In this document: piece by piece, positions 6,430 to 18,265 of the stretch | Numbering within the stretch: the stretch's first letter is position 1 | Layout: every line of letters begins with the position of its first letter | Source: a virus | Virus record (IMG/VR): IMGVR_UViG_3300043773_000063 | Coordinates: 1 to 20,091 of that record | Length of the DNA: 20,091 nucleotides | Strand: one strand, 5' to 3' | Notes under the pieces: model-generated | Database searches by the model: none | What the model was told of the DNA's origin: nothing | What the model saw: only the letters and a program-made list of their open reading frames with translations | Translations under genes and position numbers: made by a program

Positions 6430-7338
6430 ATGGCTATTTCACGCGCACAACTACTGAAAGAGCTTCTCCCCGGCTTGAACGCATTGTTCGGTCTGGAGTA
6501 TGCTCGTTATGGGCAGGAACACAAAGAGATTTACGAAACTGAATCTTCTGAGCGTTCCTTTGAAGAGGAAACCAAGCTGTCAGGCTTTAGTGCTGCCCCG
6601 GTTAAAAACGAAGGTAGCGCAATTGCTTATGACAACGCGCAGGAAGCTTGGACTGCTCGCTATACGCACGAAACCATTGCACTTGGTTTCTCGATCACTG
6701 AAGAAGCGATTGAGGATAATCTGTACGACAGCTTGTCTGCTCGTTACACCAAGTCACTTGCTCGTGCGATGGCTTACACCAAAGAGGTGAAGGCAGCAGC
6801 AGTTCTGAACAACGGTTGGGCTTCTACCGTAACTTACGGTGACGGTCAGACTTTGTTCTCCACAGCACATCCGCTGGTTTCTGGTGGCACTAACAGCAAC
6901 ACGACCGCTACGGGCGTGGATCTTAACGAAACCTCGTTGGAAAATGCAGTGATTCAGATCGCTGCGTGGACTGATGAACGTGGGCTTTTGATCGCTGCTA
7001 AACCACGCAAGCTTATCGTTCCTCCTGCTTTGATGTTCGTGGCAACTCGCCTGTTGGAAACCGAACTTCGTGTCGGTACTAACGACAACGACATCAACGC
7101 CCTGAAGAACAACGGCTCGATCCCCGAGGGTTATACGGTTAACCACTTCTTGACCGATACCAACGCTTGGTTCCTGACGACCGATGTTCCTAACGGCCTG
7201 AAGCATTTTGTACGCACACCGTTACAAAATTCAATGGATGGAGACTTCGACACCGGAAACGTTCGCTACAAAGCTCGTGAGCGTTATAGCTTTGGTGTGT
7301 CTGATCCTCTCGGAATCTACGGATCTCAGGGAGCCTAA
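6430..7338 (+). CDS. Major capsid protein
   Basis: A 302-residue coat protein, probably of HK97 fold. The N-terminus (MAISRAQLLKELLPGLNALFG) is helical. Residues about 30-60 form an extended charged arm (YETESSERSFEEETKLSGF). The centre contains YTHETIALGFSITEEAIEDNLYD (near 78-100), a pattern I associate with Mu-gpT-like phage head subunits. The next part contains FSTAHPLVSGG (140-150) and PRKLIVPPALMFVATRLL (near 192-209), like the P-domain of such coats. The end (RYKARERYSFGVSDPLGIYGS) also matches many coats. AGGGG sits 7 bases before the ATG. A strong terminator follows 11 bases after the stop, closing the head transcription unit. No pro-peptide cleavage signature is obvious, in keeping with a separate scaffold. 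Confidence 0.92.
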   Translation: MAISRAQLLKELLPGLNALFGLEYARYGQEHKEIYETESSERSFEEETKLSGFSAAPVKNEGSAIAYDNAQEAWTARYTHETIALGFSITEEAIEDNLYDSLSARYTKSLARAMAYTKEVKAAAVLNNGWASTVTYGDGQTLFSTAHPLVSGGTNSNTTATGVDLNETSLENAVIQIAAWTDERGLLIAAKPRKLIVPPALMFVATRLLETELRVGTNDNDINALKNNGSIPEGYTVNHFLTDTNAWFLTTDVPNGLKHFVRTPLQNSMDGDFDTGNVRYKARERYSFGVSDPLGIYGSQGA

Positions 7339-7348
7339 TCAGGCTGCG

Positions 7349-7376
7349 AAAAGGGGGTTGCAAAACCCCCTTTTTT
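7349..7376 (+). terminator. Intrinsic terminator after the major capsid gene
   Basis: A perfect 11-bp stem (7349-7359 with 7364-7374) encloses a GCAA tetraloop of the GNRA type and runs into six T residues (7371-7376). Because the stem contains A4 upstream and T4 downstream, it could terminate on either strand. It lies 11 bases after the capsid stop codon. A smaller hairpin (AGCCT 7332-7336 / AGGCT 7341-7345) overlaps the stop codon itself. Confidence 0.93.
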
Positions 7377-7385
7377 ATTTATACT
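7358..7385 (+). promoter_or_regulatory. Candidate sigma70-type promoter overlapping the terminator
   Basis: TTGCAA (7358-7363, 4 of 6 matches to the -35 consensus) and TATACT (7380-7385, 5 of 6 to -10) are separated by 16 bases. The -35 box lies in the terminator loop. Transcription would start near 7392, immediately before the first arm of the inverted repeats. It would let the downstream genes be expressed despite the terminator. A match of this quality can arise by chance in AT-rich DNA, and host sigma preferences are unknown. Confidence 0.4.
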
Positions 7386-7393
7386 GTAGGTAT

Positions 7394-7463
7394 CTGGGAA
7401 ACCAGCTTGCTAAACTGTCCCAGCAGACGATGCACCGATTAGCAAGCGACTTGTGCATAAGGA
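7394..7463 (+). promoter_or_regulatory. Leader with three interleaved inverted repeats upstream of gene 7470
   Basis: Three perfect inverted repeats are present: A, CTGGGA 7394-7399 with TCCCAG 7418-7423; B, GCTTGCTAA 7405-7413 with TTAGCAAGC 7439-7447; C, ATGCAC 7430-7435 with GTGCAT 7453-7458. A and B interleave, and B and C interleave, whereas A and C are compatible. The RNA could therefore switch between B alone and A plus C, or form a pseudoknot. Stem C ends directly before the ribosome binding site AAGGA (7459-7463), which is 6 bases from the ATG at 7470. A small alternative hairpin, CTGG-GAAA-CCAG (7394-7405), also exists. The inverted repeats are seen directly; any regulatory role is inferred, and a DNA operator is an alternative. 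Confidence 0.5.
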
Positions 7464-7469
7464 ATTATC

Positions 7470-7970
7470 ATGGCAGTTTCAACGACCCAATCGATTTGGC
7501 GATCTGGCGGCGGCGATCAAACTCGCACCGCATACTGTGGCACCGGACTTATGGTTGCCCAGTTTTATTTTGACCCTACTGCTGCTGATACGACAGCGGT
7601 TCAAATTTCTTCTTCTAATACAGCTCCGGTAATTCTTCCTGCTGGCGCAGTTGTTGTTCAAGTTAACATCAACGCTGCGGGTACAGGTGGAACGACACCT
7701 ACTTTTGATATGGGCTGGATTGGTTATTCTGACACTTCTGCTTCTGATGCTAACGGCTTAATCGCTGCGGGTGATGCTGACGCAGGTAAACAAGTATTTG
7801 ACTGGTCTACGGCTACGGCAGGTGATGACATGGGGGCGATTATGTCTGCTACTCAGATGGTCAAAATCACTGCTGGTGCTACGACAGGCGACGCTCCTAC
7901 GGGCGGTACGGCTTCTGGACAAATCCTGTACTACGTCACTGATCCATACCTCGGTCAGCAAAACGTCTAA
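7470..7970 (+). CDS. Virion structural protein, beta-type, function unknown
   Basis: A 166-residue protein rich in Ala, Thr, Gly and Asp with few Lys or Arg, the composition of a small beta-sandwich virion protein. It starts with RSGGGDQTRTAYCGTGLMVAQFYFDP (11-36), then alternating strands such as PVILPAGAVVVQVNI (53-67), and ends with SGQILYYVTDPYLGQQNV. No signal peptide or membrane helix is present. It is the first gene after the terminator and the structured leader, with AAGGA 6 bases before the ATG, so it opens a new transcription unit. Position immediately after the coat gene suggests a head decoration or head-completion protein, but this is inference; I do not recognise a named family. 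Confidence 0.7.
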   Translation: MAVSTTQSIWRSGGGDQTRTAYCGTGLMVAQFYFDPTAADTTAVQISSSNTAPVILPAGAVVVQVNINAAGTGGTTPTFDMGWIGYSDTSASDANGLIAAGDADAGKQVFDWSTATAGDDMGAIMSATQMVKITAGATTGDAPTGGTASGQILYYVTDPYLGQQNV

Positions 7971-17236: not shown

Positions 17237-18265
17237 GTGTTCGGCTTCTCAGCATTCGGCGGCGCAGCACTTGGTGCGACAGGTTCTGGCGGGGCTTCGC
17301 CTACCGAGGGCTGGGGATATGGCGCTTGGGGATCGGGTACATGGGGGCTTAGTGGGCAACAAACTTATGAAGCGGCTATTACTGAATCATCAACAGGTTC
17401 AGATACGGTTGCCGCTTTATTCCAACCAAATGTCGCTGTCGCAGAAACGGCTACAGGTTCCGACAGTATTAGTGCCATATCTCAATACGCTGGGGTTATT
17501 GCTGAAACGGCCACAGGCTCAGATGTTATTAGCTCCGCAGCAACCTTTACTCCAAACATCTCTGAGTCAGCAACAGGTTCTGAAACAGTCGGCGCCGCCG
17601 CGCAATTTGGTGCATCAGTTAGCGAATCATCAACTGGCAGTGACGCAGTCAGTGCAGCGGTTTATATTGGCGCAGCTATATCAGAAACATCTACTGCGTC
17701 TGATACCGTCAGTGCGTCAGCAACCTTTGGAACGGCTATATCAGAAACAAGCTCTGGAGCCGACAGTATTAGTGCAACGCCGCAGTATGGCGCAGCCATT
17801 ACTGAATCAGCATCAGGATCAGACGAAATTAGCGCTGGAGTTTCTTTCACAGCCAGCGTCTCAGAAACAGCAACAGCCACAGATACGTTTGAAGCTTTTA
17901 ACGCATTCATTGCAACGATTACAGAAACGGCAACCGGATCAGACTCGGTGGTCGCTCAGACCCTATTCCCGGCAGATGTTTCAGAGTCAGCATCAGGCTC
18001 CGATCAAATCAGCGCATCGGCAAACTTTGCCGTTGTTATTGTGGAGGTGGCTACAGGATCGGATCAAGTTTCAGCCGGCTCAACGCTTTATGTATCGCTG
18101 GCAGAAACAGCCACAGCAACCGATACGGTTAGCCAACGATTCTTGTGGGAACTCATTGATGACTCACAGACCGCTAACTGGCAAAATATCAATGATTCAC
18201 AAAGTGCTGGTTGGACGCAGATCAATGATTCTCAAACAGCCAATTGGACACCCATTACGACTTAA
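17237..18265 (+). CDS. Repeat-built tail stalk protein (thirteen 20-residue repeats)
   Basis: A 342-residue protein. Residues 1-43 are Gly/Ala/Trp-rich (FGFSAFGGAALGATGSGG; WGYGAWGSGTWG). Residues 44-303 are thirteen consecutive repeats of exactly 20 residues with consensus [aliphatic]-x-E-[T/S]-[A/S]-[T/S]-G-S-D-x-[I/V]-S-A. Residues 304-336 are three 11-residue repeats (W-x-x-I-[D/N]-D-S-Q-[T/S]-A-[N/G]). This suggests an elongated stalk or beta-solenoid. The start is GTG 17237, with AAGG 7 bases upstream; the overlapping ATG at 17235 opens a different frame that is also free of stops to 18278. This frame is chosen because its repeats form a conserved amino-acid pattern and because phage proteins starting FGFSAF are familiar to me. 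Confidence 0.85.
   Translation: MFGFSAFGGAALGATGSGGASPTEGWGYGAWGSGTWGLSGQQTYEAAITESSTGSDTVAALFQPNVAVAETATGSDSISAISQYAGVIAETATGSDVISSAATFTPNISESATGSETVGAAAQFGASVSESSTGSDAVSAAVYIGAAISETSTASDTVSASATFGTAISETSSGADSISATPQYGAAITESASGSDEISAGVSFTASVSETATATDTFEAFNAFIATITETATGSDSVVAQTLFPADVSESASGSDQISASANFAVVIVEVATGSDQVSAGSTLYVSLAETATATDTVSQRFLWELIDDSQTANWQNINDSQSAGWTQINDSQTANWTPITT
17366..18145 (+). repeat. Thirteen tandem 60-base coding repeats
   Basis: Each unit is exactly 60 bases (20 codons). The best conserved part encodes E-[T/S]-[A/S]-[T/S]-G-S-D (for example GAAACGGCTACAGGTTC). Copies are diverged at DNA level, so the array is not newly expanded, yet no unit shows an insertion or deletion. A last array of three 33-base units follows at 18146-18244. 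Confidence 0.92.
18146..18244 (+). repeat. Three tandem 33-base coding repeats
   Basis: Three units of 11 codons encode W-x-x-I-[D/N]-D-S-Q-[T/S]-A-[N/G]. They directly follow the 20-residue repeats and are followed by a fourth partial unit (WTPITT) that ends the protein. Confidence 0.88.

Follow-up and report, generated by a model that had tools for sequence, protein, structure and literature searches.

A conserved four-helix pseudoknot fold in the probable mRNA leader of a predicted phage capsid cement gene

Riboswitches of the SAM-II and preQ1-II types carry the 3′ arm of a pseudoknot at or over the Shine–Dalgarno sequence (SD), and their ligand-binding bases are strongly conserved. A phage precedent for translational control by such a structure is the gene 32 leader of T4, also present in T2 and RB69, in which a simple H-type pseudoknot located 67 nt before the start codon is bound, along with an A+U-rich tract, by the gene's own product and governs how the next gene is translated (PMC3014915). 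A structured phage RNA of another kind is HK022 putL, which is about 70 nt long, closely follows its promoter and forms its first pair at +3 (PMC9378689). The closest described RNA is Mu-gpT-DE (Rfam RF03012, 53 positions), which is filed as ‘Gene; sRNA’ and is known here from its Rfam model. It occupies the slot after a gpT capsid gene, up to the start codon of a cement-type gene, and its core consists of helix B, a single A, hairpin D, AC, 7–9 nt, GA and helix B′. Here, we describe a leader in a 20,091-nt stretch of viral DNA (IMG/VR record IMGVR_UViG_3300043773_000063, positions 1 to 20,091; ‘the window’) that shares this slot and this core but has two further helices, A and C, that are missing from Mu-gpT-DE, in which the D loop is larger. 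The outer helix of Mu-gpT-DE has 4–5 bp and a 3′ arm, CAGG, that runs into the SD CAGGAG, whereas in the window helix C abuts the SD.

The leader lies between a major capsid protein gene (Pfam PF25209, E = 1.5e-17, and PF10124, E = 2.4e-11; PHROG 371, major head protein) and a gene whose product gave no family match in Pfam or PHROG (Table 1). An initial annotation of the window had reported three perfect inverted repeats of 6, 9 and 6 bp in 7394–7458, the last ending exactly before the ribosome-binding site. Both observations are correct, and the repeats correspond to helices A, B and C, but that inventory missed a fourth helix, D. The order of the arms is A B D A′ D′ C B′ C′, followed by the SD and the start codon. 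Helix A crosses B and D, and helix B crosses C. Because no base is claimed by two helices, the four can form together in a multiple pseudoknot. B adjoins D across a single conserved A, which belongs to the core common to the leader and Mu-gpT-DE, and through helix A the whole loop of D pairs with the leader's 5′ end; the AC that follows D′ is also present in the RF03012 consensus. Helix B sits within a pair of 14-nt arms with 86% complementarity, and the distance from the end of B′ to the SD is 11 nt. Dinucleotide shuffling of the window element, repeated 300 times, never produced the A-B-D-C arrangement.

Table 1 Coordinates of the leader, its surroundings and the cultured carriers (positions in the window unless an accession is given).
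Feature	Position	Strand	Details
Major capsid protein gene (Mu-like gpT / Phage_capsid_4)	6430..7338	+	Pfam, PHROG
Intrinsic terminator 3′ of capsid gene	7349..7380	+	11-bp perfect hairpin 7349-7359/7364-7374, then T-run
Predicted sigma70-type promoter	7358..7385	+	−35 TTGCAA 7358-7363, 16-nt spacer, −10 TATACT 7380-7385
Helix A 5′ arm	7394..7399	+	6 bp with 7418-7423 (loop of hairpin D)
Helix B 5′ arm	7405..7413	+	9 bp with 7439-7447
Unpaired A between B and D (core), nearly invariant	7414	+	alignment A22, at least 90%
Helix D 5′ arm, CTG	7415..7417	+	with 7424-7426
Helix A 3′ arm, entire loop of hairpin D	7418..7423	+	
Helix D 3′ arm, CAG	7424..7426	+	flanks A′ arm
Unpaired AC after D′ (core), nearly invariant	7427..7428	+	A35 and C36, at least 90%
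Helix C 5′ arm	7430..7435	+	6 bp with 7453-7458
Unpaired GA before B′ (core)	7437..7438	+	A46 at least 90% conserved
Helix B 3′ arm	7439..7447	+	
Helix C 3′ arm, abuts SD	7453..7458	+	
Shine–Dalgarno sequence AAGGA	7459..7463	+	starts directly after C′ end at 7458
Predicted capsid cement (decoration) protein gene, 166 aa	7470..7970	+	ATG at 7470; predicted structure
Cultured carrier HTVC023P	MN698239.1 26775-26848		
Cultured carrier DSL-LC04	OR003939.1 3529-3603	−	
Cultured carrier HTVC027P	MN698241.1 about 35511-35582		

Evidence for the fold comes from related phages. We collected 80 viral contigs with capsid proteins about 87–95% identical and aligned the leaders using MAFFT without structure, scoring helices B and D on 45 of them. 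On this structure-blind alignment the two helices were 95.4% paired with every pair changed on both sides, and their covariation score was 0.80, compared with 0.22 in shuffles and 0.06–0.20 when slid. Taken separately, helix B had all nine tested pairs changed on both sides and 94% of cells paired, and helix D had three of three pairs changed and 99.3% of cells paired, its arms occurring as CTG/CAG, CAG/CTG, CGG/CCG and CCC/GGG. The arms of A and C are misaligned by plain MAFFT because of indels of 1–2 nt, so for these helices we swapped partners in an alignment built with knowledge of B and D alone; the covariance model R1 likewise contains only B and D. At least five Watson–Crick pairs of helix A were present in 64 of the 65 aligned leaders, against 16.4 ± 3.0 after partner swapping, and of helix C in 62 of 65, against 20.2 ± 3.0, while three control region pairs gave no comparable signal in this test. 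Of 62 distinct leaders, 61 could be assigned this structure. No G·U pairs occur in A, C or D of the assigned leaders, and the mismatch cells of B hold 23 G·U against 2 A·C, a count that is supportive only, given that the scan was more tolerant of G·U. In pelagiphage members the scanned helix D (GAC/GTC) is ambiguous, and a reading of 2–3 bp, CG(A)/(T)CG, fits the core better.

The initial annotation had suggested an RNA-level leader with a pseudoknotted layout, to be judged by compensatory change in related phages; such change is abundant in the arms of the relatives, and all four helices covary. A conserved RNA fold within the 5′ leader can hence be accepted with high confidence, and comparative sequence analysis makes a single conserved multi-pseudoknot structure of four helices near-certain.

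The fold is widespread. Searches with R1 gave 70 matches in 82 sources, one per source, on the coding strand and in the slot that follows the capsid gene, and R1 also matches loci outside its training, including contigs from bacterial genome bins. Whole records mostly carry a single copy; one record (G026) has a second R1 match at its other end, which follows a second capsid gene and is the same slot. A weak second match in DSL-LC04 (OR003939.1 29915-29981) was rejected as chance, as it lies inside a UvrD gene and is without the arms. Capsid queries from HTVC027P, CRP-902 and MinM2 yielded 240 further loci, and a strict scan of the 105 nt ahead of the next gene found the four-helix arrangement in 136 loci overall, about two of which (L303 and L305) look like chance, versus 0 of 302 shuffled leaders; in the pelagiphage-type group it was found in 64 of 84. 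Carriers include freshwater and ocean phages. In the pelagiphage form C′ is the CTAGG of CTAGGAGG and overlaps the SD, whereas in most freshwater members C′ ends just short of the SD and does not cover it. Synechococcus phage MinM2 has a different, GC-rich pseudoknot in the same slot (L082 1572-1629), in which GACCCGGGG/CCCCGGGTC crosses CCGTCT/AGACGG and the last arm lies in GGAGACGG, adjoining the SD.

The four-helix fold is absent from Rfam 15. At gathering and permissive thresholds the window leader gave only chance matches to terminator-like sRNAs, and none of the riboswitch models matched it or the tested relatives. With E allowed up to 5, RF03012 still failed to match the window; it gave no match to the leaders of loci L016 and L089 at E up to 1, none in 20 loci at its gathering threshold (49 bits), and none in the window's own record; R1, likewise, gave no match on the tested Mu-type loci. 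RF03012 does match 31 of 48 surveyed records, 21 of them above cut-off; it is in marine relatives that Mu-gpT-DE takes the place of the leader, and in Roseobacter phage CRP-902 it matches the same slot with 72.3 bits, the match ending on the ATG of the next gene. One core grammar fits 58 of the 119 leaders with the four-helix fold and 58 of 81 without it, most of the latter Mu-type, compared with 4 of 1,000 shuffles; as this grammar was drawn up with both classes already in view, homology of the core is no more than likely. With the same slot and a common core, the four-helix leader looks like a larger sister class of Mu-gpT-DE. Mu-gpT-DE in turn looks like a cis leader and not an sRNA, because its model ends on the AUG of a cement-type gene (L085 3996-4048). 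Eight leaders (L256, L257, L261, L289, L292, L307, L316 and L333) keep A, B and D and have a GCCAAGAC-like stretch in place of the C arm; this stretch is found in Mu-gpT-DE too, and the eight are possible intermediates between the two classes.

The predicted promoter upstream of the leader matches the sigma70 consensus at 9 of 12 positions and is predicted to start transcription at A7392, in which case helix A begins at +3. Its −35 element is placed in the loop of the capsid-gene terminator, so that terminator and promoter overlap (7349–7385), and several relatives have a −35-like sequence in the terminator hairpin as well (for example, TTGTGC). Many relatives have a terminator-like hairpin ahead of the leader slot. 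Across the relatives the −10 element starts 13–15 nt 5′ of helix A, and in the pelagiphages it lies exactly 14 nt 5′ of it in 55 of 56 scored leaders. Promoter scores of at least 9/12 were reached by 22 of 61 freshwater-type leaders, versus 2.3% of shuffles, and by 14 of 20 loci with a gene inserted between the capsid gene and the leader. Such extra genes, between the capsid terminator and the leader, occur in many relatives (for example, L003, L016, L044 and L070, in the set L002–L081); they are often homing-endonuclease-like, and promoter and leader are kept together 3′ of the insertion. With a −10 element at a fixed place before helix A and the cement start codon after the last arm, the region is, as judged from sequence, very probably an mRNA leader. 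Some leaders of the Mu-gpT-DE type have little room for a promoter past the terminator, and the 5′-end geometry is therefore not universal in the sister class.

The gene that follows the leader had been annotated as a decoration protein gene, and structural comparison agrees. The AlphaFold2 model of its product, of moderate confidence (pLDDT 63.5, pTM 0.65), has as its best Foldseek match the Pam1 capsid chain 7eel_H (E = 1.6e-4). The top four VIA-align matches are GP4, KHP40, KHP30 and Pam1 entries (capsids or cement proteins; Z 9.1–8.0, rmsd 2.8–4.4 over 103–123 residues), with a small margin over the nucleoplasmin-like folds in the next rows (Z at most 7.8). A PDB sequence relative was not found for either the capsid or the cement protein of the window at the thresholds used, and the DSL-LC04 gene in the same slot is annotated ‘cement protein’. 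The product is predicted from its model to be a Pam1/GP4/KHP40-like capsid cement protein. Identical leaders occur in the window (7393–7458) and at L018 1756-1827 and L023 2436-2507, and are followed by cement proteins of different families; hhalign between two cement clusters was weak (29%). Leader and cement gene therefore recombine, and the downstream protein is unlikely to be a specific ligand of the leader. Elsewhere in the window, a 342-aa open reading frame at 17237–18265 consists of degenerate, ETATGSD-like repeats, each about 25 residues long, and may encode a tail-associated protein.

We consider it probable that the element is a cis-acting 5′ leader with translational control of the cement mRNA as its main role. 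Translational tuning is suggested by two features: every form has a helix arm that either reaches as far as the SD or covers it, and the first helix starts close to the predicted 5′ end. Transcription would start at A7392, from the promoter in and just past the capsid-gene terminator, and helix C would cross B and pair just upstream of or over the SD. The folded leader may then compete with the 30S subunit at the adjoining SD and so set the translation rate of the cement gene, a tuning that would match cement to capsid protein. The two proteins occur at 540:540, that is, 1:1, in phage GP4 (PMC9698820), so their output must be matched. The paired 5′ end would probably also slow mRNA decay as a second effect, and the effect of the leader on translation could be activating instead of limiting. 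The C′ arm that stops short of the SD in most freshwater members counts against the explanation by competition at the SD. Like the gene 32 leader, the window leader would be a phage mRNA pseudoknot that controls translation of the next gene, but here four helices lie directly against the SD, and one family of downstream protein can be exchanged for another; autoregulation of the gene 32 type by the downstream product is less likely, since identical leaders precede different cement families.

The alternative that survives best, although we think it unlikely, is that the leader purely stabilises the 5′ end, with helix A blocking RppH and RNase E (or RNase J) to give a long-lived cement mRNA without translational regulation. 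RppH and RNase E favour single-stranded 5′ ends, and added 5′ hairpins stabilise mRNA (PMC3997798); helix A starts at about +3 in nearly all members, and the freely varying arm sequences of the leader are what is expected of a structural barrier. But a single 5′ hairpin would suffice for that purpose, and the position of C at or over the SD and the conserved B/D core with its A, AC and GA would be left unexplained.

A nascent-RNA antiterminator of the HK022 put type, whose folded 5′ end binds RNA polymerase and allows read-through of terminators in the downstream structural genes, would account for the similar geometry, a structured RNA of about 70 nt paired from +3, and for the terminator that adjoins the leader. 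It is nonetheless improbable: put consists of two stem-loops that contact the polymerase, with no tie to an SD, whereas the leader is multiply pseudoknotted with freely varying helices. Nor does antitermination require the 3′ arm to stop, as it invariably does, at the SD of the following gene.

The initial annotation had proposed, as one reading, a two-state leader in which B excludes A and C, and the pseudoknot-free folding energies of the nested alternatives, −12.1 kcal/mol for A+C and −11.0 kcal/mol for B+D, are indeed close. A ligand-driven switch of this kind now seems very improbable. The alternative helices share no bases in any of the 61 assigned leaders, unlike switches with competing arms, and because the exclusivity arises only in pseudoknot-free folding, a single fold with A, B, C and D is simpler. 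The position of the 3′ arm resembles that of SAM-II and preQ1-II riboswitches, but conservation outside the helices is limited to roughly A, AC and GA, few bases for a ligand pocket, and the Rfam riboswitch models do not match.

Least credible of all is an element that acts as DNA, whether the simple operator once offered as an alternative or a recombination or replication site, with the inverted repeats bound or extruded: the slot does recombine, as the exchanged cement families and adjoining homing-type genes indicate, but the arms change freely with pairing kept and hold no conserved sequence for a protein to read (the G·U excess in B is supportive), interleaved pairing is not a cruciform layout, and the element always occupies the coding strand, with the promoter before it and the SD after it.

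The leader adds a compact four-helix RNA fold with strong covariation that is without an Rfam 15 entry, and at 66 nt it is of a tractable size for structure determination. The orphan Mu-gpT-DE gains a likely identity, as the cis leader of a head-cement gene instead of an sRNA. Among the carriers, the group of HTVC027P and HTVC023P is reported as the most abundant of the known pelagiphages, at about 7.59% of viromic reads (PMC12753301). Control of the cement-to-capsid ratio, if this is what the leader provides, becomes testable in cultured phages.
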